From contig NJBN01000014.1 of assembly GCA_005223185.1 (NCBI GenBank), forward strand, positions 1 through 64,000: a stretch of DNA of 64,000 nucleotides, written 5' to 3'. The stretch is from a candidate division LCP-89 bacterium B3_LCP (GTDB lineage: Bacteria > Electryoneota > B3-LCP). Shown piece by piece: positions 21,181 through 45,539 of this stretch. The translations under genes were made by a program, and so were the position numbers. The notes beneath the pieces were generated by a model. It searched no databases. It saw only the letters and a list, made by a program, of their open reading frames with translations, and was not told the origin of the DNA. Position 1 is the stretch's first letter, and each line of letters begins with the position of its first letter.

Positions 21181-21213
21181 TTTTCTCTCCTTTATTTTCA
21201 AAGCAGATATTAG

Positions 21214-27523: not shown

Positions 27524-27951
27524 CTTGAATCTCCTTTTATTGGTAAGCTTCAGATTAACCGTTATAAGAAAAATCTTTCTGAGCCATACCGTACGTTGAG
27601 TTCGATCGTGCTCCACACTACATAAGAGCGATAATTTTTCATCAGTATCTTTTAGAACGAGGATTACAGTAGATCTCCGATTTAAATCGGAGATGCAGGA
27701 TTATTGTCGTGTACTTTCAGAGATACCGTGTAAAGGTGATGATATATTAGACTCCAGAACGGAGCTATATCTCGTGAGTGAGGATAGTAAACCGTGTGTA
27801 CAAACTAACAAAGCAAATCATATCTTCCCTGCAGATGCGGGATATAGCTATCTTTAGATATTTATCAAATCTGGTTAGTTTGTTAGGTTATTAAACTTCG
27901 TATTTCAAATAGGTCGTGGTTATTTTATTATTATTGGAAAGGGCATTTGCG
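27524..27951. other. 428-bp intergenic region with a 22-bp perfect palindrome
   Basis: This is the largest gap in the minus-strand block. It separates the kinase gene from the MotA/ExbB-like operon. It contains a perfect palindrome (27673-27694), a second small dyad (CTCCAGAACGGAG, 27752-27764) and no gene. A promoter for the MotA/ExbB-like genes probably lies here, but I cannot point to clear -35/-10 boxes. Confidence 0.5.
27673..27694. promoter_or_regulatory. 22-bp perfect palindrome, possible operator
   Basis: Eleven bases (ATCTCCGATTT) are followed immediately by their exact complement with no loop, 150 bases upstream of the MotA/ExbB-like start. A loop-less even palindrome in an intergenic region fits a dimeric regulator site better than a terminator. 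Function inferred only. Confidence 0.4.
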
Positions 27952-30900
27952 CTACTTGGGCACGCAGACGAGACGGAATCCAGTGATCGATTCCCTGGCG
28001 CTTTGAATTCGTCTGGTTCGTTTCGTGCAGGTCAAGTACTTGGGATCTGTGGTTTCGTAACTGCCGCCGCGGACGATCTTCTCCTGGCCAAACATCGGTC
28101 CTTTGGGATCGGTGACCTGCGACGATGGGTAATAGTCGTACCAATCCTGACACCATTCCTGGACATTACCGTGCATATCGTAGAGGTTCCAGCCGTTAGG
28201 TTGTTTTTGGGCGACAGGATGAGTTGTCCTTCCCGCATTAGCACCATACCAAGCATAATCACCTAACATAGCGGGATTATCTCCAAAGGAGAACCGCGTA
28301 TTGTTTCCGGCTTTGCAGGCATGTTCCCATTCGGCTTCTGTAGGAAGGCGATAAGTATTGTTCGGATCTAAACCGTTCAGCTTTATAAGAAAGTGCTGGA
28401 TCTCCTCTTGGGACACATTTTCAACCGGATTCTGCTGATTCCCCTGGAAAAATGAGGGATTCGATCCCATGACTTCAATCCATTTTGACTGTGTAATTTC
28501 GTGGTTTCCCATCCATATCATTCTAGTAAATTTAACTTGATGTTTCGGCCTTTCATCCAGATTCAAACCCTTCACGTTTGATTCGTATCCCATTTCAAGA
28601 CTGACAGAAGGCACCCAGACAAACTCCATCCCAGAAAAGGTTCTTTTAATACCTGCTTTCATCCACTGGTAGGATTCTTCGCGGTAATTCAGAGCATCCG
28701 GATAGTTCGCTGGTTTCTTATCGATTTGCTTCCCAAGCTCAATAACTTCACCCCATTTTTTATAGGCTTCTTCGTAGTTTTTTACTGAAAACAGTTCTTG
28801 AGCTTTGTTATATTCCTGCTTGAAGAGACTAAACAACTCGAGTTGCGCGATAGCATGGGTACGCTGTTGCCTGGCTTTTGAGAGACTGGTTGGAAGGGGT
28901 TTTACTTTTTCCCCTGTTGCAATGGCAGATTTAAAAGCTGCAATAGCTTCATCATAACGAGCGGCTTTCAGAAGCTGTTTAGCTCTGCTGAAGGTTGTCT
29001 CATATTCCTGCTTGAGGCGTTCATTCTCCTGGATCTTGTGAACAACTTCATCTTTTAGATCCTTAGCGTTTTGCAGGTCTGTGGGTATAGGATCCATTCT
29101 CTCTGCGGTTCCAATTGCCTCGGTTAATTTATCCACAGCCTTTTGCCAGCTCAGTGGATCTTCCGCACGTGCCAGTGGTATGGCTTCGTCGTAAAGGCGC
29201 TTGTACTTCCAGTATCTCACAATCTGAGTGTCGAGATGTTCTTTCAGCGCACTGGTTTGGGCGAGGTCGGTCGGTTGGGGATTCATTTTGTTCGCGATAG
29301 TGAGTGCAGAATCCACTTTTGTCCTGGCAACTTCCCAATCATCCGGATCGGTCGAGTTGCGAAGCGGTTTAGCTTCTGCCACCAGTTCTGTATATAACTG
29401 ATAATTGGCAATCTGTATTTCTACTACTTGCTTCAGGATCAGAATTTCCGATAAGTTCGGTGGCATGGGATTCATCTGGTGGGCGATATCGATCGCGGAG
29501 GTGAATTCTTGCGCGGCCGCCTTCCAAACTTCGACGTCTTTTGATTCACGCCAGTGCTGCGCTTCCTCGACAAGCTTTGTGTATTCCTCAAACCGGCTGA
29601 TTTGTATTTCTACTTTCTCTTTCAACTCTTCCAGGTAAGCGTACTCAGAAAAGCTGACTTTCATCTCTTTCGCGGTTTGGATAGCGCTATCCAACTTTAC
29701 AATAGCCAGCGACCAGTTCTTTGGATTAGGCGACATTTGTAGAGATTTGGCCTCCTCAATAAAATGTTCGAACGCGTGATAGGATATAATGCGGGTCTCT
29801 AACTTCTGCTTTAAATCTTCCACCTTGGAATAATCGGAAGGTGCTGGATCCATTTGAGTGGCAAAATTCAGTGCTTCGTCACACAGTACTACTGCCTGCT
29901 CCCAGTCCAGAAGCTCTAGCGATTGCTCGAAATCTTCCGCCCGTGAGACGATTTCCTGGTACTGTCTGTACACCCTAAGTTGGCTCAGCAGACTCTGTCT
30001 GATTTCGATAATTTCAGTTAAATCCCTGGGTCTTTTCTTCAGGCTATCAGATAAAATGATAGCCTCATCGTACTTAGTGACAGCTTTCTCCCAATCTTCA
30101 TAATTTTTTGACTTTATCAAACGGCTGGCATTTTTTACAAGTTGTTCATAACGATCTATTAGATCTTTTGAGCTCGAAGCGACTTGAACCTGAGGGGAGG
30201 GAGGTGCGGGTATGACTTGCATGATAATAGTTATTATGCTTACAAGCAGAATAAGCGCTAGAACTATCAATACTATGGTAGCTGAAGATAGCTTCTTAGA
30301 TTTACTCTCCTCACCTGGATCGACAACAGGTGGGATTTTACCGCTTGAAGTTTCCGGTCTTTGCCCTAACCGTGGTTTGTATCCCTCGTCCTCCAAGAAC
30401 TGCTGGACCTCCTCTAACGTCGCTCGTTGGTTTGGATCTTTCCGTAGCATGGAAGAAATAATACGGTGGTATTTTTCCTGTAGCTTTGCTTGAATCTTCC
30501 GCTCCGGATCCTCGTTCATCTTTTTCTGCAAGATTTCCGCATCGGTTTTCCCTTTGAAAAGACTTTCCCCGGTAAGCATTTCAAACCATATCAATCCAAG
30601 CGAATAAATATCCATTTGGGGAGTAGGACAATCACCTGAGTGATGTTCTGGAGACATGTAGGGAAAAGTGCCGTAAGCACCGATAGTTGTGCTGTTCGAT
30701 GACAATTCCTTCGCAACCCCGAAATCGCAAACGACGACTTGCATATAGTCCCCGTCCCGGAATAATATATTTTTTGGTTTTAGATCGCGATGAATCACTC
30801 CTTTCTTATGAGCTGCCTCCAAAGCTTGGCAAACCTGTGCTATAATCGTGGTGGCAACCGATTGCTCGGGTTTTTTCTTCTTCTCCAGATAGTCCGATAA

Positions 30901-31326
30901 ATCGGTATTGCCTTGAACGTACTCCAGCTCGATAAAGGGGATGTCTATGACACCCATATGCAGGTCGTCGGCTTGGTAAATTTTAACGATGGGTGACTCG
31001 GGATAATCGCCCTTGATCGCCTTGAGGATTTCAGCTTCGCGATTGAATTTATTTATAATTTCAGTTTCCGCGAGTCGTTCTTTATGTAGAATTTTGAGTA
31101 TGCATTCACGTTCTTCTTTGGTGTTATAAGCGTAGTATATTGCGCACATACCACCTACCTTGGGCTTTCCATTTTTACCTAGGAGCGGCCTGACATTTCG
31201 GTAAGTGCCAATATCGGTGCTTACATCATCTTCCCTTCGTCGCCGAAATAAAATGGTTCCCATTATCGCTAACACTACTAGGAGCAATAGTACCAGGATA
31301 ACGACTAAGAGAGTATTCACGTACAT
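27952..31326 (-). CDS. Transmembrane Ser/Thr kinase with repeat stalk and C-terminal FGE/lectin-like domain
   Basis: 1124 residues. N-terminal helix (about 5-26), then a Hanks-type kinase domain (about 42-312) with ATP-site K78, catalytic HRDLKPKN (179-186), DFG (201-203) and SPEHH; all key residues are kept. A second helix (347-372) leads to an extracytoplasmic stalk of about six or seven 63-residue helical repeats (pattern YxxLVxxA...W..A..K...AI..A..M.P.P.DL). The last 250 residues are an FGE-sulfatase/C-type-lectin-like domain (YRLPTEAEWEHAC, LYDMHGNVQEW, GFRLV) with only one Cys in the catalytic region (YLTCTKR), so probably a sensor. The same stalk repeat occurs in the FHA protein two genes upstream. 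Start ATG with GAGGA upstream. Confidence 0.92.
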   Translation of the reverse strand: MYVNTLLVVILVLLLLVVLAIMGTILFRRRREDDVSTDIGTYRNVRPLLGKNGKPKVGGMCAIYYAYNTKEERECILKILHKERLAETEIINKFNREAEILKAIKGDYPESPIVKIYQADDLHMGVIDIPFIELEYVQGNTDLSDYLEKKKKPEQSVATTIIAQVCQALEAAHKKGVIHRDLKPKNILFRDGDYMQVVVCDFGVAKELSSNSTTIGAYGTFPYMSPEHHSGDCPTPQMDIYSLGLIWFEMLTGESLFKGKTDAEILQKKMNEDPERKIQAKLQEKYHRIISSMLRKDPNQRATLEEVQQFLEDEGYKPRLGQRPETSSGKIPPVVDPGEESKSKKLSSATIVLIVLALILLVSIITIIMQVIPAPPSPQVQVASSSKDLIDRYEQLVKNASRLIKSKNYEDWEKAVTKYDEAIILSDSLKKRPRDLTEIIEIRQSLLSQLRVYRQYQEIVSRAEDFEQSLELLDWEQAVVLCDEALNFATQMDPAPSDYSKVEDLKQKLETRIISYHAFEHFIEEAKSLQMSPNPKNWSLAIVKLDSAIQTAKEMKVSFSEYAYLEELKEKVEIQISRFEEYTKLVEEAQHWRESKDVEVWKAAAQEFTSAIDIAHQMNPMPPNLSEILILKQVVEIQIANYQLYTELVAEAKPLRNSTDPDDWEVARTKVDSALTIANKMNPQPTDLAQTSALKEHLDTQIVRYWKYKRLYDEAIPLARAEDPLSWQKAVDKLTEAIGTAERMDPIPTDLQNAKDLKDEVVHKIQENERLKQEYETTFSRAKQLLKAARYDEAIAAFKSAIATGEKVKPLPTSLSKARQQRTHAIAQLELFSLFKQEYNKAQELFSVKNYEEAYKKWGEVIELGKQIDKKPANYPDALNYREESYQWMKAGIKRTFSGMEFVWVPSVSLEMGYESNVKGLNLDERPKHQVKFTRMIWMGNHEITQSKWIEVMGSNPSFFQGNQQNPVENVSQEEIQHFLIKLNGLDPNNTYRLPTEAEWEHACKAGNNTRFSFGDNPAMLGDYAWYGANAGRTTHPVAQKQPNGWNLYDMHGNVQEWCQDWYDYYPSSQVTDPKGPMFGQEKIVRGGSYETTDPKYLTCTKRTRRIQSARESITGFRLVCVPK

Positions 31327-31408
31327 CGCTACGTCCTCACGATCTTGGTTGTTGACTTCGCAATGGAAAGCTGAAATTAAAGGATATCAACAGCCAGGTT
31401 GATATGTT

Positions 31409-32746
31409 TTACTCGGTTGTATTTATTTTCTCAATATTGCTCTGGTATTCTTTATCTCCCATACGTACGATCAATTGCAGTTCCCATTGAGCATCTGACA
31501 AATTCGAAGTACCGATCGGTATTCGGGTCACAAGTAGAATCACATTTGTGCTTCCGGGCCAGGCATCTCCAAGTTTGAAAACGATAGTATCCTGAGCGCT
31601 TTCGACACTATTGAGGTTATCAGCCTCGCTCGGTTTAACCGCCGAAGACAGTTCTGCGCCATCTACTCTATCAGGTTCTTCATCATGGGTAGATTCTGTC
31701 TTACTGATCAGGATTCCGTCAGTTCCTGTATCAGCGCTTACCGGCGATTCAGTGGCAAGCATGTCATTCGCCGGCTCTCGCTGAGGAAAAATATTTTCGC
31801 GATCTATAACAATAACTATGGCAGCGATTAATATTACCGCCACAATTAGATTGAGGATCAGAAAGGTGTTGGATCTCCTTTTTAAACGTCTTTTTGCAGG
31901 GATAACTGTTGTGAAGTCCCTTGAGCGCATTACATCAATGTCCGTCTCATCGGGCAATAAAATGCTTCTACGCGGGAGATTACCGATCTCAATTAAAACT
32001 ATCGTGATATTGTCAGTAGAGCCTCTTTGATAGGCAATGCTAATCAGGTTATCAGTAGCTGTTTCGAGATCGGTGGTGCCGAAAATGTGATTTTCCATAT
32101 CATGGTCGAAAACCAGTGGATTGACCATACTTCCAACCAGTCCATCGCTGCAAAGTAGATAAACCTGGGAATAGGAAAGAGGGATTTCGATGATGTCGGG
32201 TTGAGAATTACCCCCCTCGCCCAGATTCCTCACCAGCGCGGTAGCGAGACTGCGTAATTCGGCACTGGAACTAACATTCTCGAGTGTGTAAATGCCCCGA
32301 TCAATCCCGTCCTGAATCGCGGTGTGATCAACCGTCAGTTGGGTGGTGCTTAACTCATCGATTTGGTAGGCTCTGCTATCACCAATATTTGCGATCCAGA
32401 CGGATTCTTCAGACACCGCAGCCAAGACCAGAGTAGTTCCCATATCTGACAGCTCCGGGTGTGTCACACAGTAAGCAATTAAGCGCTTTTGAATTGATTC
32501 AGTTGTATGTGTAATCCAACTGCGGATGGCTTTGTTATTTAGGGGAGGAGACTTCACGGCCTTGTCAATTTCATCGATAGCCAGGCGGCTGGCTATACTG
32601 CCTCCGCTCTGACCACCCATTCCATCGCAAATAGCAACAACAGCGTGGAGGCAGCCCCGAGAACGTTTAAAAACCTTATGAAGATAAGCATCCTCATTCT
32701 CCGGTCTGCGTCCCGCTGTGCTGAATCCGTAACTTCGTATCTCCAT
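31409..32746 (-). CDS. Transmembrane PP2C-family Ser/Thr phosphatase
   Basis: 445 residues. The cytoplasmic PP2C domain (1-256) keeps the metal-binding and catalytic signatures: NEDAY near 18, DGMGG at 41-45, GDSRAY at 122, SDG at 200-202 and TDNITIV near 244. After a basic linker (KRRLKRRSN) comes one transmembrane helix (294-314) and a roughly 130-residue extracytoplasmic tail with a beta-rich end (DAQWELQLIVRMGD). It should reverse phosphorylation by the kinase encoded 82 bases downstream, and it follows the FHA gene by eight bases. The trio is a complete write/erase/read phospho-signalling set. Confidence 0.92.
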   Translation of the reverse strand: MEIRSYGFSTAGRRPENEDAYLHKVFKRSRGCLHAVVAICDGMGGQSGGSIASRLAIDEIDKAVKSPPLNNKAIRSWITHTTESIQKRLIAYCVTHPELSDMGTTLVLAAVSEESVWIANIGDSRAYQIDELSTTQLTVDHTAIQDGIDRGIYTLENVSSSAELRSLATALVRNLGEGGNSQPDIIEIPLSYSQVYLLCSDGLVGSMVNPLVFDHDMENHIFGTTDLETATDNLISIAYQRGSTDNITIVLIEIGNLPRRSILLPDETDIDVMRSRDFTTVIPAKRRLKRRSNTFLILNLIVAVILIAAIVIVIDRENIFPQREPANDMLATESPVSADTGTDGILISKTESTHDEEPDRVDGAELSSAVKPSEADNLNSVESAQDTIVFKLGDAWPGSTNVILLVTRIPIGTSNLSDAQWELQLIVRMGDKEYQSNIEKINTTE

Positions 32747-32754
32747 TGATCAGA

Positions 32755-34281
32755 TTAACGCTCCCTATAAATCAAACTGACGTTTCCCATCTTAATTCTG
32801 TCTCCTTCATTTAACTCTCGCTCCTCGTTGACTTTCATCTCTACGTCGTTGAAAATCGTTGCATTGCGGTCTGGATCATTTGGATCAGGGATGTTAATGA
32901 GGGTGTATTTCCCCTTATTGTATTTCATCCGAGCCTGCCGTTTAGATACCGTTTGATCCTCGAGTTGAATGTGAGACATGACGGAACCTTTAAGTCGCCC
33001 AAAGGTATACTCCAGTTTGTGATCCTGAATCCCACGCGGGCGAAAGATGGGAATCTCCTTAATCTCTTGACCACCCTCTACCTCAAAGCGGCCAGGCATC
33101 AGTTTGACGGTTTCGTTTTCAATGGCCTCTTTCGTCGGTAGGGGAACTCTGATCTTTTGCGTTTTATCGAAGGCGGTGATAACCGACTCTTCGTCAGTGG
33201 CACTCAATTTCATTCGTTCTCGGATCAGAACAAAGATCAAGACCGCTAATACGATGATCAATGCACCGATCAGTAAAATCAGCAGCCAGTTGGTTTCAAT
33301 CTTTTTACCAGCTTCTCCAAGCTTGGCAGAGGCGTTGCTCAAATTGTGCGGGGGTGAATCAAGTTGATTTCCCAATACCATGACCTCCTTCCATTTGGCC
33401 ACTACTTTTTCCCAATCCCCGCGACTACGTGCGGCCGCATGCAGCACTTCTGCATCCGCAAAGCTACGCTGGTACTCAATATCCTTCTCTGAATGGGATT
33501 GTGCTTCTTTAAGCTTCGCCTTGGCGATGTGCAGGTTTTCCGGTGAAGGTTTGATTTCTTCCCCTAGACGGACAACCTCATTCCATTTTGCTGTAACTTC
33601 CTTCCAATCTTGGAAATCAGTTACCGTAGAGTGTAGTTTTTCAGTCTCTTCAAAGAGGCGCCAATAATTAAGCTGGGATTCAATTTCCTGGAGGTAAGAT
33701 TCAGCCTCTTTTACTTTGGCCTGGGCGATGTGACCTGTAGCCGGTTTAGGATCCAATCGATTCCCCAATGTAAGAACGTCATTCCACTTCCTAATTACAT
33801 CCCGTAGTGAAATCGCAACGTCTTCAAAATCATCAAGATGTTGATACTTCTTGGCGGTATTGCATTGTTTTAATACTTCGGCATGCACTTTTTCAATATC
33901 ATCGAATGAGGCGCGGTACTTACGCTCGTCACTCTCGGAAATGAGTTCTCGTGACACTTCCACAATCCAGCGTTCACCGGTCATCTCATCAACAGAAACG
34001 ACCCCTTCTACCTTAAACTCCTTGCTGATTTCAGGATAAGAATCCCTGGTCACAACTTTAACAGTATCTGTCCAGTTATCCCGCAAGATATAAGCCCTCA
34101 TGTTGGCCCCCATCGGTGCGCTGCTGTAGTGAGTAACTACCCCATAGACCGTAACAGGGGAATGATCTAAAGCACCAATGTAGATACTGTTGACCACGCG
34201 CACATTGGATTGAGATTGCACGTTTGATGCTACTGTGAAGGTAATTAAAAGCACCAGTGAAAAGCATGTAGTGATTTTCAT
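32755..34281 (-). CDS. Transmembrane FHA-domain protein with OB-like and stalk repeats
   Basis: 508 residues. Signal peptide (1-22), an OB-fold-like segment (about 27-115, YGVVTHYS...AYILRD), three copies of the 60-residue helical repeat also found in the kinase stalk (135-325; e.g. WKEVTAKWNEVVRLGEEIKP), a transmembrane helix (331-353) and a cytoplasmic FHA domain (about 412-508). FHA signatures: TFGR, a Ser-rich loop, VSKRQA in place of the common VSRxHA, and INIPDP...NATIFND. FHA domains bind phosphothreonine, so this is the likely reader of kinase output. Shared stalk repeats suggest direct contact with the kinase outside the membrane. Start ATG with AGGAGG upstream. Confidence 0.88.
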   Translation of the reverse strand: MKITTCFSLVLLITFTVASNVQSQSNVRVVNSIYIGALDHSPVTVYGVVTHYSSAPMGANMRAYILRDNWTDTVKVVTRDSYPEISKEFKVEGVVSVDEMTGERWIVEVSRELISESDERKYRASFDDIEKVHAEVLKQCNTAKKYQHLDDFEDVAISLRDVIRKWNDVLTLGNRLDPKPATGHIAQAKVKEAESYLQEIESQLNYWRLFEETEKLHSTVTDFQDWKEVTAKWNEVVRLGEEIKPSPENLHIAKAKLKEAQSHSEKDIEYQRSFADAEVLHAAARSRGDWEKVVAKWKEVMVLGNQLDSPPHNLSNASAKLGEAGKKIETNWLLILLIGALIIVLAVLIFVLIRERMKLSATDEESVITAFDKTQKIRVPLPTKEAIENETVKLMPGRFEVEGGQEIKEIPIFRPRGIQDHKLEYTFGRLKGSVMSHIQLEDQTVSKRQARMKYNKGKYTLINIPDPNDPDRNATIFNDVEMKVNEERELNEGDRIKMGNVSLIYRER

Positions 34282-34438
34282 TATAGCCTCCTATTTATCT
34301 GAAAACATGTCCTTACACTCGCCATGGTACACAATGGTTCGGACCGCACTGCTTGCTGTCTGGATCTTCTCGTTATCGCTGTTTGTCCATATGAAATGGG
34401 GCAGATTGTTTCAGAGTGATTCTGAACTCTTGAAACGC

Positions 34439-36601
34439 TTAAAAATCGACGCTAAAACGTAATCCTACTCCGTTTTGGATTGGTACGATGCCCCATTGGG
34501 GTTTAAATTTGGGTAATGCCAGTTTACCTCTGTTTGGTACTCTTTGATCATTGGCAAATAGCGTTTCCGTTTCCGGATTCCAGAGGATCAATCTATAACC
34601 GGCGTGAAGCACAAATATCGCCGAGAGACCGAGTAATATATTCTTTTCCACCTCCAGGCGGTTTTCAATTTTTGGGTAATCAGAGTAATCATCCAGAAAA
34701 GCCATATAACCATAAGTTCCCGCGCACGCTAATGCGACTCCAAAACTGGTCCAGGTCACCAGTGAATTTTCCCGATATTCGTATTGCCTGAATTGAGCCT
34801 TGCGCTCCAACAGGTTGTATAATCCACCCGCAAGCAGATACCCCGCGAAGAATACCCCAGCGCGAGTATACTTATTTTTCGCCTCTAGGTAATAATCATC
34901 GGGCCATACCAGCTTTTCAAAGCCTGCCAGGCAGCAATAGAGTGATGCACCATGGAGAACTTCCTTGATGCCGTCATATACATCAGAAAAAGGGGGCGGA
35001 ACCTGATTTTTATATACCTCATATATCTCTTTCAATTGTACATCGTCTAGACTGAAATATTCCTTGTGTGTGCTATAGGCAAACGCTGTCTCAGCTAACC
35101 ACTTTTTCTGTGAATAATTACTCCTGTCAGTGAAAGTCTCATAAAACCTTTCACCGGCTTTCTCTTCAATTGATTTATGAAAGAAGAGAATGTTGTTACG
35201 TCCTGCTTGCGAGTTTTCTTCCATCTTGTTGATATAAATCTTAAAATTTGGCCGGCTTTGGAAAATCGTCTCCGCACCTTCCCAGAACCAGTAGTTCTTT
35301 TGAAAAAGATATATAAGTCGATCTGAGTCTTCAAAGGCATTTATGTAATATCCCGCGGCTAAATCCCGATAAATTGTGGAGAAAAAATCTTTATCAGGTT
35401 TACTGCTTGGCTCAAGGTAGGATTGGACTTTAGCCAAGCCGCTGTACGCCTTCTTCCATTGATCAACTTTTCTCTTGAGTGTCGTGTATTTCAGCTTCCA
35501 GTAGGGTTGCAGTTCCTCTTCTTCCATCAAGATAGCGCCGAGCTCTCGTTGAAGATCAGTGTATATCTGATGCTCTGCTTTAACTTTGTCGATAGTCTTC
35601 CTGGAGAAGACTTGCCTTCCTGAAAGAACCTGATACTCATATTTCCGGAATTGGTTGCTGAAACCTTCGACTCGGATTGCGTTCTGATCTGCGAGAGCGA
35701 TGAGTTCTTCTGCTTTGCTAATATCATCAGACTTTTTCGTCAAAGCACTTCGATATTCCTGAAAGGTTGTACTGGTATTATAATAAACATCGTACAAACG
35801 GTTATAGACTATCGGATTTGTTTGCTTATAAGCCCTTTTCGCTTCCAATGCACTGCTTTTAATAGAATTGAAGTTAGGTTCGTTAGTGGCATCAGACCAA
35901 GCCGCCTCTGCTCGGTGCAAGAACGAATCCCCCCTCTTTTTGTTGCTGCAGACTTTTAAAATGAGGGATCTGTTATTCTGAACGCTATTATAAATATCCT
36001 GACTTACCAGGTCTTGGTATTCCCGGTCTTGGTATTCGCGATCTTTGGAATTAAGATAGTCTTTTGCAGCATCAATTTTATCAAGTTGTTGTTCAACAAA
36101 CTCATGGTCGAGAAAAATATCTGTTTCAGGTTGCACAACCATTTCTGCCAACTGCGCTTTCAAGTTCTGATATTTATCTTCCAGAAGATCGAGCACCTCA
36201 AATTTCCGTGTGGTATTTCCGGTTATCTCCACCATGCTAACCGCTTCCCTGTGATTCCTCAAACTCAACTCTACAAGAACCAAAGCCAGTTTATAGGGAA
36301 TGTACATATCCGTCGGATTCTGCTTTCGCGCTTCTAGCAATTCAATCCTAGCCTGTTCGAATTCACCCAATTCTATATAACATAATCCAACCATCTTAGA
36401 TATGTTATCCGAGCCTGTGTACCCCCCATCCCTCGCTGCCATAAAGTAAGCAAGCGCTTCAGGAAACAATTTCTGATCAAAGTATTCCTTACCGATTCTT
36501 AGCGATTTCTCGGTGTTCTGTGCAAAAGCAGACCCTGAAAATCCTGATAGTAATAGGATCAAACATTGTAGTAACCAAAGCTTAAGACTCGCTTGCTTCA
36601 T
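34439..36601 (-). CDS. Exported TPR protein with membrane-associated C-terminal region
   Basis: About 720 residues, signal peptide about 1-28. TPR units lie at about 32-120 (ALAYFMAARDGG, GLCYIELGEFEQARIEL), followed by long helices with an in-frame tandem duplication (REYQDREYQD). From about 590 there are three or four hydrophobic stretches (AGVFFAGYLLAGGLYNLL, SFGVALACAGTYGYMAF, LLGLSAIFVLHAGYRLI), and the end (GVGLRFSVDF) looks like a final outer-membrane-type beta strand, as in small anchoring domains of FCB TPR proteins. Start: ATG 36601 with AGGAG; GTG at 36604 is one codon earlier. Role unknown; it could link the signalling set to the envelope. Confidence 0.65.
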   Translation of the reverse strand: MKQASLKLWLLQCLILLLSGFSGSAFAQNTEKSLRIGKEYFDQKLFPEALAYFMAARDGGYTGSDNISKMVGLCYIELGEFEQARIELLEARKQNPTDMYIPYKLALVLVELSLRNHREAVSMVEITGNTTRKFEVLDLLEDKYQNLKAQLAEMVVQPETDIFLDHEFVEQQLDKIDAAKDYLNSKDREYQDREYQDLVSQDIYNSVQNNRSLILKVCSNKKRGDSFLHRAEAAWSDATNEPNFNSIKSSALEAKRAYKQTNPIVYNRLYDVYYNTSTTFQEYRSALTKKSDDISKAEELIALADQNAIRVEGFSNQFRKYEYQVLSGRQVFSRKTIDKVKAEHQIYTDLQRELGAILMEEEELQPYWKLKYTTLKRKVDQWKKAYSGLAKVQSYLEPSSKPDKDFFSTIYRDLAAGYYINAFEDSDRLIYLFQKNYWFWEGAETIFQSRPNFKIYINKMEENSQAGRNNILFFHKSIEEKAGERFYETFTDRSNYSQKKWLAETAFAYSTHKEYFSLDDVQLKEIYEVYKNQVPPPFSDVYDGIKEVLHGASLYCCLAGFEKLVWPDDYYLEAKNKYTRAGVFFAGYLLAGGLYNLLERKAQFRQYEYRENSLVTWTSFGVALACAGTYGYMAFLDDYSDYPKIENRLEVEKNILLGLSAIFVLHAGYRLILWNPETETLFANDQRVPNRGKLALPKFKPQWGIVPIQNGVGLRFSVDF

Positions 36602-36727
36602 CACTTCTCCTCCTTTTGCCCTTTTGTAAGGTAGTTGTTGAGATCAACACTATTGCAAGGGTTAACATTTACCCTGACTATTCCTCTGTAATAATCGCAA
36701 TCCTCCTCTGATAGCCCTCAAAGCTCC

Positions 36728-39628
36728 TTATCCTATTTTTTCTAAAAGTTGTTCGAGTTCGTGCTGCAAACGTATTAATTCCACTTTCCTGTGCATCCGG
36801 GCTACCAGAGTTTTTAGATATTCTTCGGCTAGTTTTTCCAACTTTGATCGAAAGTTATTCCGGGATTTCTCTTCAGAGAGATCAGCGGCAACTATTTTAT
36901 TTTTTAGCTTGGTTAGTTTCTTTTCGAACTTGCCGATGGATTTTTTTTCTTTCTCGGTTAATATATACCAGCCCTGAATCGCTGTTATCATTTCATCCAG
37001 ATTATTTTCCGGTTGACAGAATTCAAGAGGTTGTTTGGTGTTTGAGGTAATCTGCATTGCCTGGTTATTCAGTTCGGCGATTGTGGATGTTTTAGGGTGC
37101 TCATCGAGTCTGTTTTCTCCGTAATAAAGAGTAGGAATTATACTTTGGTAAACGTTGACAAACTGGTTCATAACCTCTAACGAAGGATGTCTGAAACCTC
37201 GGGACGTTTCCCTGCTGATTAAAAACCTTTCGGCACTCCTTTCATTCGGATCTCTATCGCCAATGTTGACCAGTAATTGATCGAACATGTACCTATCAGG
37301 CAGGGCAACACCCTGCCTTTCATCGAATTTTATAATCCTCATGCGTAAGGGGATCAAGTCCGCTTCTCGGTTCACCTCCTGGTACAGTTTGTCGAGTTGC
37401 GTTTTAAGCTTCTCCAATTCTTTGGTATATTTTTTCTGGATCTTTTGAGTAAATTGTATCTGAGACGGGAAATTCTCTTCAAATTTGCCAAACTTCTTCC
37501 AAAGCTTCTCGATCGATTTCCGGTCCCCAGGTACTGAATAGGTTTCTTCTGACCTCGGCAGGCATTGCCAGAATTTTAACTTAAAAGAGAGGATTCCGGC
37601 GCGAAGGGTCGCAAAGAGAATAGCGTCATCCTTGGTGAGATTCACCTTTTTATATACAGACATGGTTACATTTCTAATTCTCGCGTCTGTATCCTCTAAT
37701 AACCAGGTCCAAATATCGAAAGCGCACGCGTAGGCAGCAGCTCTTTCAGCCGGATGCGTGTCACCATATTCTTCCATAGCACGGGCGATCATGGAGCCCA
37801 GGATAAAACAATCGTTGCGGTTGTCCCTTTTGCCTTCCTGGTCGAAGAGCTTGTAAGCTGAAACATAACTTCCAAAATCTCTTCCCGAATAGTAAACAAA
37901 ATTCTTGACCGGCTCCAGAATATTTTTCTGAAAGGGATAGTTCTCCAATTTGATGACCAGAGTATTGTCCTTGGGTACCATATCATCAATGAGCCGTTCA
38001 TCATAGGTTGGATCGTGATTGCCGAACTGATCCAGGCGTTGCAGTTGAATCCTTGGACGTAGACTACCTAATTCATACCTCTTATAGTATCGATGCATCT
38101 GACCTTCGATATAGACCGTATCTGAGGGGAAATCGACTACAGTGAAGGTTCCTAAGCTTTCACCGTCAATGATCACCGAAACGGAGAATGTAATGTCCTT
38201 CAAACCCTTGTAATCAAAGTAAATGTACATTGAAGGGCGATTGTAGTAAATAGGTGATCCTGATATCATACGATCTCGGACTACTTCCATATTGTAAACG
38301 GTATCGGGAAGATGTAACTCAAAAGGTTTCCCTGCGGGTATTTTGAACTCAAGCTGTCCAAAGATCGCATTGGATTCAGCAATCTTCCGATCCAATTCCA
38401 GTGAGATGACCTCCCCGGTCCCGTTATAATCATGAAGATCAGAGTAGACTACCTTGACTTTAATGACTTCCTGTTGAGGTGGCGGCATGTTGTTAACGGT
38501 CGAAGCATATCCCCAGATAGATTCGGCAAATTGTTCTATGACCCGGCTGTAATTGCTGTCATCGATTTGTTTAATGACCTCAGAATCTCCGATAATGCCG
38601 TCTCGAATTTTCAGGCATCTAAGCCACGAGTTTGAGGCTTGCCCACCCGAGAAGAAGGGCCATAATTCCAGCACATAAACATTGAGGTCGTTTATATGCT
38701 CTCGATGGTAAAAATCCTTAATTCTGGTGATCAGATTCCCGCTGGTATAGGTACCCCAATCTGAAAAACTCGCGGATTCATTACAGAAATATAAAGGTAT
38801 GATATCCATATGGCTATAACCGTATTCATCTCTGAGACGGTTGAATATTTCTTCCTGCTGGGATTCTGGAGCGGCAATAATAATATCACTATTGCCGCGC
38901 CGGTCCTTACAATCAATGATCCATCTAATTTTTGGCAACATGGCAAAAATCGAACGATCATAATCTCCGGTTATCTGGTAGTTACGTGGATTCATTAGGA
39001 TGATATCGCCAAGGCCTTGATCGATCCGAATGATTTTCCGTAACGGAAACCAGCTCTTGTCATGGTTTAAGTCTACATCCTCAAAAGTCACAAATGTGAT
39101 AAAAGTATTCTTTAATTTGTTCTTGATCAGAGTCTCAAAACGGTTCCGGTAGTCTTTTTGATTTCTGTAAATACCCCTCGGAGGATGCGCGTAACTGGCA
39201 GTAATCACAATGATGTAATCTTTGTCCAGACTGCTGCCCATGCCTAACAAATTCGCTGCTTTTTCTATTGCTAAATAAGGATCCGAATCCCTCCCGTTAT
39301 ATCGAATGTGCTCAACTACAGCATTCATCATATCGGGTGTTTCCTTAATCTCCTTCGCAGCCACAAGATGATCTTCACCTATGATCGCTCTGGCAGTCCT
39401 GTCGTAAGTGATCAGTCCAAATTGATCATTGGGTTCCAGATAGTTTTTTATGAAATATTGAACACAGCGCAGAATCCTCCTGTCAGGATCGTGATACGAC
39501 GAAGTCATAGCCTCGCTATTATCCACGATCATGACAATGCTGCGGCCTTGAACATCCTTATAGTGGAAGCCAATAATCGATAGAACAATTATAATCAGCA
39601 AAGTTGATGGAATAGTTCTCTGTTGCAT
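36728..39628 (-). CDS. Exported von Willebrand factor A-domain protein
   Basis: 966 residues, signal peptide about 1-28. Residues 30-200 are a vWA domain starting SIVMIVDNSEAM; the metal site is DNSEA rather than the canonical DxSxS, so metal binding may be altered. Further recognisable strands are FGLITYD and DYIIVITASYAHPP. Residues 200-560 contain beta-sandwich segments; from about 640 the protein is helical and ends in coiled coil (KKSIGKFEKKLTKLKNKI, HRKVELIRLQHELEQLLEKI). In type VI threonine-phosphorylation systems the kinase itself carries a vWA domain; here it is a separate exported protein in the same operon. Start ATG with AAGGAG upstream. Confidence 0.78.
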   Translation of the reverse strand: MQQRTIPSTLLIIIVLSIIGFHYKDVQGRSIVMIVDNSEAMTSSYHDPDRRILRCVQYFIKNYLEPNDQFGLITYDRTARAIIGEDHLVAAKEIKETPDMMNAVVEHIRYNGRDSDPYLAIEKAANLLGMGSSLDKDYIIVITASYAHPPRGIYRNQKDYRNRFETLIKNKLKNTFITFVTFEDVDLNHDKSWFPLRKIIRIDQGLGDIILMNPRNYQITGDYDRSIFAMLPKIRWIIDCKDRRGNSDIIIAAPESQQEEIFNRLRDEYGYSHMDIIPLYFCNESASFSDWGTYTSGNLITRIKDFYHREHINDLNVYVLELWPFFSGGQASNSWLRCLKIRDGIIGDSEVIKQIDDSNYSRVIEQFAESIWGYASTVNNMPPPQQEVIKVKVVYSDLHDYNGTGEVISLELDRKIAESNAIFGQLEFKIPAGKPFELHLPDTVYNMEVVRDRMISGSPIYYNRPSMYIYFDYKGLKDITFSVSVIIDGESLGTFTVVDFPSDTVYIEGQMHRYYKRYELGSLRPRIQLQRLDQFGNHDPTYDERLIDDMVPKDNTLVIKLENYPFQKNILEPVKNFVYYSGRDFGSYVSAYKLFDQEGKRDNRNDCFILGSMIARAMEEYGDTHPAERAAAYACAFDIWTWLLEDTDARIRNVTMSVYKKVNLTKDDAILFATLRAGILSFKLKFWQCLPRSEETYSVPGDRKSIEKLWKKFGKFEENFPSQIQFTQKIQKKYTKELEKLKTQLDKLYQEVNREADLIPLRMRIIKFDERQGVALPDRYMFDQLLVNIGDRDPNERSAERFLISRETSRGFRHPSLEVMNQFVNVYQSIIPTLYYGENRLDEHPKTSTIAELNNQAMQITSNTKQPLEFCQPENNLDEMITAIQGWYILTEKEKKSIGKFEKKLTKLKNKIVAADLSEEKSRNNFRSKLEKLAEEYLKTLVARMHRKVELIRLQHELEQLLEKIG

Positions 39629-39703
39629 TGGTGTACTCCTTTTATCTCACTATCCAACTTATCAAGGCTTCAGAATTGCTGATTCCTGGATAAGTATGTT
39701 GAT

Positions 39704-41659
39704 TCAGTGACAAGTCGCTTCAGGGGATTCCGGTGAACTCTGTCCTAACCAATCCTTCACCGCGACTACTTTACTCTTGTGGAGATCGTGGTTCCGTTCG
39801 TCGGGATATAACTTTAAAATTCGATCACAGAGTAAAGCAATCATTGATTCACGGTGACTCACGATGATATAACTCATTCTGGTGCGAGCCTGTATCTCAT
39901 ACAACAACGAGAGTAGACCGTTCTCAACAAGGATATCCAAACCCTCCGTCACTTCATCGATCATGAGGATTCGCCACTCCGGTTCAGGGATATTCAATCC
40001 CGACCATTCATGAAGAAGACCTAAAGTAATAAATGTCTGCAGGATAAAAGCTCGCTTTTTCTGCCCACCGCTTAACTTATAAGGAAATTTCTGTAGAATA
40101 TTTTCCCCTAGATTCAATTTGAAAAGCAGCTCATGCAAACCCTCGGTCACCTCTCTCTCTTCAAATGCATAAGAAAGTCCATAAATATCATTGTACAACT
40201 GGAAGAGCTCTTTATATTGGTGATTAAGTCGCAAGCTTGGATTCAGAGATCCAGAACAGTTCTGGAAAATGTACTGACAACGGGTAATCCATTGCCGATG
40301 ATCAATTAAAGTTAGGTCGGTGAGATGACCTCCCTGGTCCGCCAGGGCTGAACCGCGATATGTCCTTAAACCGAGCAACGCCTTCAGCAGACTCGTCTTA
40401 CCACACCCGTTTTCTCCCTGTACGCCCAGGTTTTCTCCCTTCTTCATTTCAAAATCAATGGGATTGGAAAAAGTACAATATCGATATGGCCAAACTGCTT
40501 CGATTCGAACCTGCAACAGAGGTTGATCTACGACTTGAATGGAATACCTCTGGTCTGAATCCTTAGATTGCATGTCGCTGAAGTGTCGATCGCAAATGCG
40601 GTAGTGGTCCATCAATTCTCCGGAAGGAAGCTCTCCCTTCATAACGCAATCTTCGTGTCCGGGTCTGGGTTTGATCCTCTCGCATAGCCCACATCCTTTT
40701 AATGTATGTTTTTCGAGGGGTGGCCCCGGTATGGTCGGTAAATGAGATCTTTCCTTGAGGCCTTTACCATTCCCAATATTCTTTACGGCTATGTCTCGTT
40801 TATGCCAAGCATCAAAGAGGATCTCCGTATAAGCATGCCGCATGCTGTTCTCACCGAAAAAGTCGGCTTTGGGGCCCCATTGCACAATACGCCCCAGGTA
40901 CATAATACCTATAAAATCACTGAACTCTTCGATTATTTTCAAATTGTGGCCGACATATATGACGGTAGCACCCGCCTTAGATAGATTTCGAAGAAACGTC
41001 TTGAACGTCTCGATGCCCTTTTTGTCGAGATCGGAGATGGGCTCATCCAGGGCTATAATGGGAAAAGAACCGTCCTTGTATGGCAAAAGAAGTGTGCTTA
41101 AGTCAGCCAGAGCGAATCGCTGAATATTTCCTCCTGATAACTCAGTGATTCGGGCTGCATTGACACGTTTGGATATTTTGGTGAGTTCGAACTGTGTCAA
41201 CCAGTCGAGCGTTCTCTGTTCCGGACCGTCATGGTTCCTCACAATACCCCAGGGGGAATTCTGTTCTTTCACCCGCGATAGTTTCGGAGCGATAATCTCC
41301 TGCAAGGTCTGAAAATGATTAAAAAAATCGATTGTGTTCTGGAACATGGCTAAAAACCTACGTTTGCGCCGTGCGAAAAGCTCAAATCGACGTTTTGACC
41401 ACCATGATCTGTTGAAACGCCCAAAATCAAAAGAATCGTTCCTACTGAATTTTAAGTGGCCCGCGATAGGGACAACATTATCGTCCAAAACTCCGAGCAG
41501 ACATTTTAATAGAGTGGTTTTCCCAGAGCCACTTTCTCCGACAATAGATACCATCTTTCCGGGCTCCAGGTAAAGGGCGATATTTTTTAATATGGCTTCA
41601 TCCGCTTCCGGTGCGTGAATGTGAAGGTTGGTTACGCTCAAAAGCAAATCTTGATTCAT
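39704..41659 (-). CDS. Double ATPase of an oligopeptide-type ABC transporter (DppD-DppF-like fusion)
   Basis: 651 residues with two complete nucleotide-binding domains. First: Walker A GESGSGKT (41-48), signature LSGGN (174-178), Walker B ALDEP (203-207). Second, after about residue 370: Walker A GENGCGKT, signature LSGGQKKR, Walker B MIDEVTEGLD. Between them is a Cys-rich segment (CGLCERIKP, HEDC, YRICDRHF), like the Cys cluster after the ATPase domain of peptide importers. In most bacteria these are two separate proteins. The start overlaps the permease stop (ATGA), so the two are coupled. Unusual sequence elsewhere suggests a divergent substrate. Confidence 0.88.
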   Translation of the reverse strand: MNQDLLLSVTNLHIHAPEADEAILKNIALYLEPGKMVSIVGESGSGKTTLLKCLLGVLDDNVVPIAGHLKFSRNDSFDFGRFNRSWWSKRRFELFARRKRRFLAMFQNTIDFFNHFQTLQEIIAPKLSRVKEQNSPWGIVRNHDGPEQRTLDWLTQFELTKISKRVNAARITELSGGNIQRFALADLSTLLLPYKDGSFPIIALDEPISDLDKKGIETFKTFLRNLSKAGATVIYVGHNLKIIEEFSDFIGIMYLGRIVQWGPKADFFGENSMRHAYTEILFDAWHKRDIAVKNIGNGKGLKERSHLPTIPGPPLEKHTLKGCGLCERIKPRPGHEDCVMKGELPSGELMDHYRICDRHFSDMQSKDSDQRYSIQVVDQPLLQVRIEAVWPYRYCTFSNPIDFEMKKGENLGVQGENGCGKTSLLKALLGLRTYRGSALADQGGHLTDLTLIDHRQWITRCQYIFQNCSGSLNPSLRLNHQYKELFQLYNDIYGLSYAFEEREVTEGLHELLFKLNLGENILQKFPYKLSGGQKKRAFILQTFITLGLLHEWSGLNIPEPEWRILMIDEVTEGLDILVENGLLSLLYEIQARTRMSYIIVSHRESMIALLCDRILKLYPDERNHDLHKSKVVAVKDWLGQSSPESPEATCH

Positions 41660-43674
41660 TTTGTCCCATATTTATGGATGAACCGATCCTCAAACGTTAA
41701 AGATACCATTCTCAAACCGGCGATGTTTAAAATGATGATGAACATGGGAAAAAGGTAAGCCCACGATAGAGGTTTATCCGATTCCAAATGAATGAGATGT
41801 CCCCAATTCGTGATGACTGCTTGTCCACGGCCTAAAAAGCTGATGATTACCTCAAATAGGAAAGCCATGGCGGCGAGATAACAAGCGTCAATGAAATAAC
41901 GGGCACGAATATAGTTGCGTAGAAACACATCTATAAAATAAATACGCGTCATGGAGAATCCAGATGCCCTGCGAGCACTTAGGAATTCTCGTTGTGATAG
42001 AATGTTCATGAGTGCCTTGAAGTTCTCCACCATAACCGGAGAGAGCAGGATTCCCATCAATAGAAATATATAAATCTGGTAATGTGGATTAGGCTCCTCT
42101 ATACCATGGTCGTTAGGGATAAGGCGGGAGATAGCGGACAAAGCAATCGGTATGAAGATAAGAATTGGAATGCTCGAAAATGTAGTAAAGAGCTGGTTTA
42201 TTAGTTTTGCCAGCAACCGCCAGGTCTTAGCGGTATGCATAATACCCATAAACAAGATAAATCCAGTTAAAATGAGAATGACTAAAGCAGTCACCTCACA
42301 GATAAATAAAGGAACCAGGTAGGACCGAAAACCTGATAGTGTATATGAAAATATGGGATATTTTTCACCATATGCAAAGATACCGAGATCAAACCGCAAA
42401 GGCACCCATCCGAAATAACTCTGTAAAATTCCAAACAAAAGAAGCAGGGACCACAGTGATAGAATTACATGTCTCGGATTGATGAGATGTTCAATTTTTA
42501 ATTTGACGAGGTTCTTTATTCTTAGCTTAATGTTCTGAGAGCAACCAAACCAGAAAGTCGAGTAGAAATGTGATAATCGGTGCAGGTTCCCTCGAAGTAG
42601 ATTGAAATTGATTTTCGTTTTAACCTGCTCACCAACAGATGCGAGTGGAAATTCAAACTGATTTCCGTTCCCTTTTCTGGCTTCATCCAGCTGCCTGGAA
42701 AGCAAAGGTGGATTAAGTACTCTCATCGTCCACGCAAGCAAAAGTTCAAAAATCCAGATCAGTAGAAATGAGATGAATACAACCCATATGAGAACATGAA
42801 AATGACGAGGATCAGCTATTCCCTGCCAGGCAAAAGTCGCCAATCCTTCCAAAGCAAATAGATTTTCTATGATAAGAGATAAACTTAACATGAGAACGAA
42901 CTGCCCTTTAAGTGTAGTCAGGGTTTTTATCACAATAGCTCGCAAAATAATCCTGAATTCCTGGAACCGGATCACGAAAAGGGATGAAGACGGTTTCATT
43001 TCATTAACTTTGAAGCGCCTTAGATAATCTGTAGCTAATTCTTCGGAAACTGATCGATTTGTGAATTCAAACAGAAGGAAGAGAACCATATTAGTTACAG
43101 CTAGAATGACAACAGCGAGAATATAGCGTGTCCCAAACGAACTCATCGTAAAAACCCACCTCGCGAGTGCTACAGACGGAATAGAGGAAATAAGCAGTAT
43201 ACTGATGCGAGCAATTCCTGTCAGCCTGTTTATATTCCACCAACCAAGAAGAAAACTGATAGAAAGAGATAATAGATAAGATAAAATGAGAGCGGGCACG
43301 ACAAGTTTTAAGGTAACCAATAGATATGGCCGTAACTTGTTGCCCTTGAATTTCTGATTCGGCGAAAGCTTGCCCTCAGCTATAAACGTCTCCTCCCGAT
43401 CAACCCGCCTCTTATGGGCGTCGAGGAGTAAATAGTAAAAAGGTTTGTAAGTGGGGAATAGAGGTTTCAAATCAGGGGCATAAAACAATAGCTTCCAACC
43501 CTCCTCGGTATCTATCATGGTTTCAATGACAGGAGGGATGTCTTTTATATACTCTTGATTGCTTGGCATGACTATGTACCACATCACCAGGATTAAGAGA
43601 AAAATAATAACCCGGACGAATAAATTCGAAAATGTCTTTAGAGCAGTGATAACAAAATCTGTGAACAATTTCAT
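41656..43674 (-). CDS. Double permease of an oligopeptide-type ABC transporter (DppB-DppC-like fusion)
   Basis: 672 residues with about twelve transmembrane helices in two halves, joined by a basic linker near residues 325-390. The first half carries a DppB-like N-helix, an extracytoplasmic domain (about 37-115) and a core with LLISSIPSVALARW and LIIENLFALEGLATFAWQGI. The second carries IPILIFIPIAL, the EAA-like loop SARRASGFSMTRIYFIDV and FEVIISFLGRGQ, as in DppC. Fusing both permeases and both ATPases makes a two-polypeptide transporter core. It follows the binding-protein gene by 41 bases and overlaps the ATPase gene by four. Confidence 0.82.
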   Translation of the reverse strand: MKLFTDFVITALKTFSNLFVRVIIFLLILVMWYIVMPSNQEYIKDIPPVIETMIDTEEGWKLLFYAPDLKPLFPTYKPFYYLLLDAHKRRVDREETFIAEGKLSPNQKFKGNKLRPYLLVTLKLVVPALILSYLLSLSISFLLGWWNINRLTGIARISILLISSIPSVALARWVFTMSSFGTRYILAVVILAVTNMVLFLLFEFTNRSVSEELATDYLRRFKVNEMKPSSSLFVIRFQEFRIILRAIVIKTLTTLKGQFVLMLSLSLIIENLFALEGLATFAWQGIADPRHFHVLIWVVFISFLLIWIFELLLAWTMRVLNPPLLSRQLDEARKGNGNQFEFPLASVGEQVKTKINFNLLRGNLHRLSHFYSTFWFGCSQNIKLRIKNLVKLKIEHLINPRHVILSLWSLLLLFGILQSYFGWVPLRFDLGIFAYGEKYPIFSYTLSGFRSYLVPLFICEVTALVILILTGFILFMGIMHTAKTWRLLAKLINQLFTTFSSIPILIFIPIALSAISRLIPNDHGIEEPNPHYQIYIFLLMGILLSPVMVENFKALMNILSQREFLSARRASGFSMTRIYFIDVFLRNYIRARYFIDACYLAAMAFLFEVIISFLGRGQAVITNWGHLIHLESDKPLSWAYLFPMFIIILNIAGLRMVSLTFEDRFIHKYGTK

Positions 43675-43715
43675 TCTTACAAATTCCTGATAAGGTTTTA
43701 CATGTTGAGAAGTTT

Positions 43716-45539
43716 CTACGGCACAATCATCAAATCTTTGATATCCCTGAAAAAGTAGACCGGATCAGGGTCATCGCGCAGCTGCCGCCAGAATGGGTTG
43801 TCTGTTTCGAATCGCTGGCTACGTATCAAGGCAGACTTGGGAAGGTTCCAGAGGAAAATTGCCGCGGCATCTTCGTTGAGCAAGCGGTGGATGGTGCGTA
43901 GAATGCCTCGCTTATTTATCAAATCCGTTTCGTTGAGCAGAAAATTGACTTGCTGATTGACCAAATGATTTCGATACCGGAGAAAATTTGAACCTTCGTC
44001 ATGTTCCTCGAAGTAAAACATTTTCAGCACTCGTTCATATCCCTGATGGTATACAAATTCATCGAAAATTAGGTCAAAATTGCGTTTGTTATAAGCCCGA
44101 TCATACCACTGGTTCGCAGGAATCGTCTCAATGTGAATGATAAGACCAATCTGTTCCATCCGGCCCTTAAATGATGACGCCACCCGAATCATATCCAGAC
44201 GTTCAGCCGGAACGATCAGTACAAACTGTTGGACAACACCGAGATACTCCAATTTCCCGCTGTTGGTACCGTACCTCAATTCGTTTGGTGCAGCCTCACC
44301 GATATCAAGCATGATTTCTGCAGCAGAAATATCAGGGGATACAATCACATTATCATTGTAAGCCAGGTCGCTATTTCGAAAGGGGCCTGTTACGATATTC
44401 CCGCTTGGATAAACCTCCTTGAGCATGAGGCGAATGTTGGTATACCGATACATCGCTTTGCGGAGTTCGCGTACTTCTGCAAAAACTCGCGAAGAGTTGC
44501 GCTTTGGATTGCAATTAAAGCCGATATAATAAAACGCATCGATCGCATAATCCAGAAATACGTACCCTTCCATTCCAAAAAAATCGTTCATTTTTTCTGG
44601 CGGAATCTCGAGGATCATATCTAGCGCTTGAGGATGGCTGAGCGGCAACTGAAAATTGTCTAACAATGGTTCATAGTTGTTGTATTGTCGAAATTTTACC
44701 TGTTGAATGTTGCCGGTTCCACCCGCTACCTCTTGCAAGCGCGTGAGGACTCTTTCATTAGTGCCACCTTCCGTAGCAATATCGTAGTAAAATCCTGTTC
44801 CGGAATAGGGCAATTGCGGTAGAGGACGTCTGCGATCCCTGATGCCATGCTTATATTGATCGCTGAATACAATTCCGAAGTTCAGCATCCTTTCAAAATC
44901 AGTGGCCCCACGGTTAAATTCGATTTCGAGTTGCAATGGATCGGGACAACCCCTCACATCTTTGATATAGTTTTTCAAAACCATCAAATTGGGATAGGTT
45001 CTGGGATTGCGTATAATCCCGAGAGTATGAATCACATCATCAGCTAAAATAGGAAAAATGTCCAGAGAGGGAGTGATCCAGTTGTTGCCCTCTGCTACCT
45101 GGCATTTCATCAGGCTGGCATTGTGGACATCGTCTGTTGGGATAAGGTTGCCCGCCTTTTCGGCGAGAAACTCAACTTGGCTTAAAATCCCGGGTTTATA
45201 GACCAAAAGGACCCGTTGACCGATTATCTCCAGCCCGGAGTACTGGTATAGTTTCGGATACATTAGACCGTTGAAAAGCACCTCAACGGGATTGATACAT
45301 GTGATCGGATCCATAGTTCCGATATACTGAATATGACCGATACGCAGTTCTTGAGCGAGCGTAGTAGATCCCCTGAAGAGAAGCAAAATCAAAGCCAGAA
45401 CAGTAAATAGCTGCGCTGTTTCCTTCAGCACCTTGGCATTTCTGTAGGGTGTGGGATAGTGATGACAACAAGAGGTTATTTCTCGATTCCTGCCCAGTAG
45501 TTCTGGTTCAGTTGTCCTTACGTTGCCTTCCTGGTTCAT
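43716..45539 (-). CDS. Extracytoplasmic solute-binding protein, family 5 (peptide-type)
   Basis: 607 residues. The N-terminus is unusual: about 40 polar residues with a Cys pair precede the hydrophobic export signal (FTVLALILLLF), so translation may really start further in; no clear Shine-Dalgarno resolves this. The mature part follows the family 5 pattern: early DPITCINPVEVLFNGLMYPKL, a VIHTLGII strand, the GTGFYYD segment, YYIGFNCN followed by REL..A, and a late DLIFDEF. The genes immediately downstream encode the permease and ATPase. The ligand is unknown; the partner proteins make a peptide or peptide-like signal plausible. Confidence 0.85.
   Translation of the reverse strand: MNQEGNVRTTEPELLGRNREITSCCHHYPTPYRNAKVLKETAQLFTVLALILLLFRGSTTLAQELRIGHIQYIGTMDPITCINPVEVLFNGLMYPKLYQYSGLEIIGQRVLLVYKPGILSQVEFLAEKAGNLIPTDDVHNASLMKCQVAEGNNWITPSLDIFPILADDVIHTLGIIRNPRTYPNLMVLKNYIKDVRGCPDPLQLEIEFNRGATDFERMLNFGIVFSDQYKHGIRDRRRPLPQLPYSGTGFYYDIATEGGTNERVLTRLQEVAGGTGNIQQVKFRQYNNYEPLLDNFQLPLSHPQALDMILEIPPEKMNDFFGMEGYVFLDYAIDAFYYIGFNCNPKRNSSRVFAEVRELRKAMYRYTNIRLMLKEVYPSGNIVTGPFRNSDLAYNDNVIVSPDISAAEIMLDIGEAAPNELRYGTNSGKLEYLGVVQQFVLIVPAERLDMIRVASSFKGRMEQIGLIIHIETIPANQWYDRAYNKRNFDLIFDEFVYHQGYERVLKMFYFEEHDEGSNFLRYRNHLVNQQVNFLLNETDLINKRGILRTIHRLLNEDAAAIFLWNLPKSALIRSQRFETDNPFWRQLRDDPDPVYFFRDIKDLMIVP

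Follow-up and report, generated by a model that had tools for sequence, protein, structure and literature searches.

The locus analyzed here raises the question of whether a gene row encoding a Hanks-type kinase, a PP2C phosphatase and an FHA protein represents an envelope sensor-to-phosphorylation relay of the kind that controls type VI secretion, put to work on a different machine, perhaps the MotA/ExbB-like complex encoded next to it, as the original prediction proposed. The row lies in a 64,000-nucleotide stretch of DNA from candidate division LCP-89 bacterium B3_LCP (hereafter the window). Eight tandem ORFs, all on the minus strand, span positions 27952-45539, exactly as first reported. 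They are transcribed in the order of an Opp-type solute-binding protein of family 5 (43716-45539), a probable fused OppB-OppC-like permease (41656-43674), two ABC ATPases fused in one chain (39704-41659), a probable vWA protein (36728-39628), a TPR-like protein (34439-36604), the FHA protein (32755-34281), the PP2C phosphatase (31409-32746) and the kinase with a periplasmic FGE-fold domain (27952-31326). Pfam searches confirmed the kinase with its FGE domain and the PP2C, FHA, ABC ATPase and solute-binding protein genes at these coordinates. The gaps within the FHA-PP2C-kinase trio are 8 and 82 bp, and every gap in the run from the gene of an 888-aa protein to that of the kinase is 157 bp or shorter, whereas the gap between the kinase and the motor genes amounts to 335-428 bp. 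The eight ORFs are part of a run of approximately 44 kb (51052 to 7122) in which all genes share one direction and of which the GC content is 44.1% compared with 46.9-47.2% in the flanks. No match to the marker genes of this run was found in the five genomes of the same family that were searched. The signal in a promoter/terminator scan was not above that of shuffled sequences, and the scan is thus uninformative on the operon ends.

The kinase matched both Pkinase (1e-43) and FGE-sulfatase (3e-34) of Pfam. Its N-terminal TM helix is followed by the kinase domain (residues 58-309), a second TM helix (343-377), a repeat region (384-883) and the FGE-fold domain (901-1120). By TM prediction combined with the positive-inside rule, the two helices flank a cytoplasmic kinase domain, and a 750-residue arm, in which 6 strong and 2 weak repeats of 63 aa were recognized, lies in the periplasm. 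By motif inspection, the HRD and DFG motifs of the kinase are intact, and the catalytic and metal-site motifs are present in the phosphatase (PP2C_2, 2.5e-12), which is predicted to continue behind the catalytic domain with a TM helix (290-321) and an extracytoplasmic C-terminal tail of ~120 aa. The best PDB matches of the kinase include PknB for the kinase part and the Treponema variable protein TvpA for the FGE part. The latter, a diversity-generating retroelement (DGR) protein, was the best match of the FGE domain among the solved structures shown. The genome encodes three kinases in all, and the two others differ in layout.

The FHA protein (Pfam FHA, 2e-8) comprises a signal peptide, an OB-fold-like domain, 2-3 repeats of 63 aa, a TM helix (326-361), a disordered linker containing Thr and a cytoplasmic FHA domain, the only one found in the genome by a genome-wide domain search. 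In this domain, the conserved R, S and T are kept but Gln takes the place of the usual His. The profile built from the six units of the kinase arm matched 2-3 units in the periplasmic part of the FHA protein with an E-value of 2.7e-10 (33.4 bits, compared with a maximum of 6.9 bits in 1000 shuffles), and no match was found in the other window proteins tested. An AlphaFold (AF2) model built on an input of three sequences (mean pLDDT of 67, and 41-79 in the FHA part) displayed the OB fold, helical repeats, TM helix, disordered linker and FHA-like end. Foldseek with this model retrieved OB folds and the FHA domain of DgcB with a bound phosphopeptide; since the alignments covered single domains, the TM-scores over the whole query were low. 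PDB profile searches with the FHA alignment gave no match.

Relatives of the window proteins were sought in a sample of 386 genomes; 39 genomes of the phylum itself were available. As the queries were joined proteins, two candidates were scored per genome, and one run missed the MotA of the window itself, the absences found in this sample hold at limited sensitivity. The FHA family was detected in four of the 386 genomes, namely the window genome, G136 and two Candidatus Fermentibacteria MAGs (G186 and G324), and the FHA-PP2C-kinase order recurs in two other phyla. G136 possesses the three genes in the same order and with comparable layouts, including the FGE domain of the kinase, and its FHA protein is 43% identical to that of the window. 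The same order and comparable layouts were found in G324, and the FHA and PP2C genes of G186 run to a contig end. A scan of named GTDB genomes with the FHA alignment recovered only the two Fermentibacteria MAGs already known, and no additional FHA homologue was found in the phyla of G136 and G186 or in a second sample around G136. Plasmid searches with the vWA and FHA proteins gave no match. We regard the FHA, PP2C and kinase genes as a real unit on the grounds of their sequences and order. The conservation does not extend to every part of the proteins. The G324 kinase bears no FGE domain, and conservation is therefore lacking at the sensor end. In G136, roughly one repeat unit is present in the FHA protein and no such array in the kinase, implying that repeat-based pairing is not general.

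A reverse transcriptase gene (RVT_1) adjoins the kinase gene in G136, and a 134-nt repeat is common to the 3' end of the latter and a copy beside the former. All of the 19 differences between the template and variable copies fall at template adenines (chance of ~3e-14 under random placement), which is the signature of a DGR. Thus, judging from this pattern, the FGE domain of the G136 kinase is the target of a DGR located inside the FHA-PP2C-kinase gene row (L031:12033-14471), and the variation singles out the C-terminal portion of this domain as a ligand surface. The C-terminal FGE/CLec-fold domain is present in the window as well. On the other hand, no RVT_1 reverse transcriptase was found in the window genome (G000), in which the FGE copy is therefore presumably fixed. 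Proteins combining a Hanks-type kinase with a variable CLec domain are described as common among cyanobacterial DGRs (PMC7517822); they are also known from Thiohalocapsa and have been proposed to be antigen sensors (PMC10907252). The G136 homologue is such a target, and the window kinase shares with these proteins the kinase domain and the C-terminal FGE/CLec fold, but differs in the absence of a reverse transcriptase from the genome, in its two TM helices and in the FHA and PP2C genes that lie in line with its own. The passages found in the two papers make no mention of an association of FHA or PP2C with kinase-CLec proteins. In G136, one gene row combines a complete kinase, phosphatase and reader set with a hypermutable ligand domain, an arrangement that would show how variable sensors transmit their signal.

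In the threonine-phosphorylation (TPP) pathway of type VI secretion, a membrane kinase with a periplasmic arm is combined with a PP2C phosphatase for reset and an FHA reader (PMC10482370, PMC12607579). The window shares with the type VI set (PpkA, PppA, Fha1 and TagQRST) the joint encoding of these three components, but here the FHA protein is anchored in the membrane and extends into the periplasm, and the FGE fold is part of the kinase chain. The original prediction described TagR as FGE-like and likened the FGE domain of the window to it. This likeness was not borne out by the match to TvpA and by the DGR-diversified ligand domain of G136. Nor did the ABC genes show any sign of being a counterpart of TagST. 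The solute-binding protein matched SBP_bac_5 (4e-11), and 39704-41659 matched ABC_tran twice (1e-35), with both P-loops and signatures intact, and is of the OppD/OppF (NikD/NikE) type by NCBIfam. Among the parts of an Opp/Dpp importer, the family 5 binding protein and both ATPases are clear, while the permease (~12-14 hydrophobic segments) is recognized weakly, having no Pfam match and weak NCBIfam matches to OppB/Opp2B. By these family matches, the ABC genes probably encode an importer of the Opp/Nik family together with a binding protein of its own. As predicted, no type VI genes were detected: a search of the genome (95.8% complete, 18 contigs) gave no TssK gene, and neither sheath, ClpV nor other type VI core genes were found among the window ORFs scanned. 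Thus, although the switch follows the general scheme of the TPP pathway, it does not belong to it: type VI core genes are missing (tested for TssK), and both the ABC family and the FHA architecture differ. Compared with PknB/Stp pairs, the kinase domain is nearest to PknB and the phosphatase to the Stp1 model, but the scores are far below the cut-offs of those models, and a repeat array and an FGE fold stand in place of PASTA.

The MotA/TolQ/ExbB-like channel subunit (Pfam MotA_ExbB) is encoded just outside the eight-gene stretch on the same strand (26522-27616; likely start, the ATG at 27523 with aaaaggag in front), followed by two stalk subunits, CC1 (25377-26525) and CC2 (24124-25437), each with a TM helix, a long coiled coil and a C-terminal domain. 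Homologous cassettes were found in G381, G310, an Anabaena plasmid and a Microcystis plasmid. The tails of both stalk subunits are clearly homologous to the cassette families by hhalign (CC1, 94.8% with an E-value of 5e-8; CC2, 98.7% with 41% identity over 79 aa). In CC2, an Asp is located at the start of the TM helix. The coiled coils of the window CC1 and CC2 (24124-26525) extend over ~230-270 residues, are missing or short in the other cassettes and, if fully extended, would exceed the usual periplasm. The cassette resembles the ExbBD, TolQR and Zorya ZorAB motors in combining a MotA_ExbB channel subunit with single-TM partners, but differs from them in possessing two different stalk subunits, no clear ExbD match and, in the window copy, long coiled coils. 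A weak ExbD match was restricted to the Anabaena CC1 (E-value of 0.0036), and hhalign to ExbD was negative with thin profiles. ZorA matches were marginal and the partners carry no OmpA-type domain; the cassette thus does not conform to Zorya, in which a ZorA-like channel goes with a peptidoglycan-binding ZorB and further Zor proteins. PDB profile searches with the MotA alignment gave no match. Two motor homologues read from the same phylum (G018 and G009) belong to ordinary TolQ/ExbB-ExbD-TonB-like sets and were set aside. On pANACY.03 of Anabaena cylindrica, the MotA/ExbB-like gene and two stalk genes lie closely downstream of type III-B CRISPR genes (L054:11306-15496), and on the plasmid of Microcystis NIES-2481 the same cassette shares its region with genes for a methylase, nucleotidyltransferase, SLATT and helicase (L071:6111-8711). 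The cassette on these two plasmids is possibly a defence-associated proton motor distinct from Zorya.

The motor genes constitute a different cassette that is separable from the kinase set. No kinase, PP2C or FHA gene adjoins the G381, G310, Anabaena or Microcystis cassettes in the stretches read, and no motor gene adjoins the trio in G136 or G324 or the FHA and PP2C genes in G186. The channel subunit was detected at an E-value of 1e-20 or below in 11 of the 386 genomes and co-occurs with the FHA family in the window genome alone; with so few positive genomes, this amounts to an absence of support for the motor-switch link and not to its statistical rejection. Of the relay proposed originally, the kinase-phosphatase-FHA switch is thus supported but its control over the motor is not. 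Free assortment of the transporter, kinase and motor genes in other genomes had been named as the observation that would speak against a relay, and it was largely observed for the motor link but does not decide on the transporter link. The genes upstream of FHA are not those of an importer in G186, and the upstream side ends at contig ends in G136 and G324, where the importer side is not visible. At the limited sensitivity of the search, neither the transporter genes (no clear relatives) nor the vWA and TPR genes (none) were recovered from the 386 genomes. The vWA protein of the original prediction (966 aa, with a signal peptide or anchor) did yield a Pfam match, but the score of 23.8 bits falls short of the cut-off of 27 and the metal site (DNSEA) is degenerate, which leaves the vWA identity probable only; an AF2 model of this protein (pLDDT of 33) was unusable and discarded. 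The TPR-like protein (721 aa) has a signal peptide and a C-terminal hydrophobic stretch, and a suspected relationship to a PEGA/DUF5683 protein of G324 was rejected as the comparison showed no link.

How far the switch extends into its surroundings can be read in more than one way. If the block from 51052 to 24124 encoded a single machine, the kinase-FHA switch would gate both the Opp-type importer and a proton-driven motor with long stalks. All the genes being co-directional with mostly short gaps, the GC content of 44.1% and the lack of matches to marker genes of all parts in the sampled relatives of the phylum, whereby the parts may have arrived together, agree with such a machine, but the FHA-PP2C units and motor cassettes keep different neighbours elsewhere, a gap of 335-428 bp precedes the motor genes, and the vWA and TPR genes have no relatives in the sample; we consider this reading unlikely. 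The trio may instead form a peptide-sensing unit with the importer, vWA and TPR proteins, with importer and binding protein serving as detectors of envelope or nutrient peptides and the kinase tuning uptake or the repair of the envelope. This is doubtful: the unbroken run of short gaps from the 888-aa protein to the kinase and the intact importer ATPases speak for it, against which stand the G186 genes upstream of FHA and, again, the lack of detected vWA and TPR relatives.

Sensing of conflict or of self and non-self, with the FGE-fold domain detecting invaders or neighbours and a defence-associated motor among the outputs, is suggested by analogy with the diversified FGE domain of G136, with the cyanobacterial kinase-lectin-fold proteins (PMC7517822) and proposed antigen sensors (PMC10907252) and with the cyanobacterial plasmids, on which the motor cassette is found close to CRISPR and further genes of defence type. 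No RVT_1 reverse transcriptase was found in the window genome, however, no nuclease, toxin or STAND NTPase was recognized in the block, and the PADLOC matches were generic (kinase, ATPase and coiled coil), so that we regard this reading as very unlikely.

We rather favor the FHA protein, PP2C and kinase as together forming one free-standing receptor-kinase switch, a reading drawn from sequence comparisons that we hold to be fairly likely. As the switch recurs in other phyla without neighbouring transporter or motor genes in the stretches read, we take it for a sensing module that probably stands on its own rather than for a control set of type VI secretion. A ligand would bind to the FGE-fold domain in which the periplasmic arm ends and, by analogy with PknB-type kinases, would bring together or reorient the kinases and activate their cytoplasmic domains. 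Judging from the protein families, the kinase would phosphorylate a Thr, located either in a third protein or in the flexible linker next to the membrane in the FHA protein; the resulting phosphothreonine would be bound by the FHA domain, and PP2C would reset the switch. A contact between kinase and FHA protein through their periplasmic arms is probable, given that the latter is anchored in the membrane and shares the periplasmic repeat with the former. The switch may act on the Opp-type importer with the vWA and TPR proteins, or these may feed the signal into it, and the MotA-CC1-CC2 motor would be a separate module of its own. More tentatively, and with less likelihood, the trio may represent an undescribed receptor-kinase cassette with an exchangeable sensor tip, hypermutated by a retroelement in some hosts, and an FHA partner docking through shared periplasmic repeats, by which new ligand inputs could evolve into one conserved phospho-switch. 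A phospho-switch that is real and recurs is thereby told apart from the neighbours read with it, and the analysis yields a concrete kinase-FHA pair to test.

Two further genes of the co-directional run are of note. A second FGE-fold protein, fused to a TPM domain, is encoded at 13892-15952 beside Band_7 and NfeD genes. A secreted protein of 1190 aa with no Pfam match is encoded at 17629-21201, and the pattern of its N-terminal third seems to recur further along the protein.
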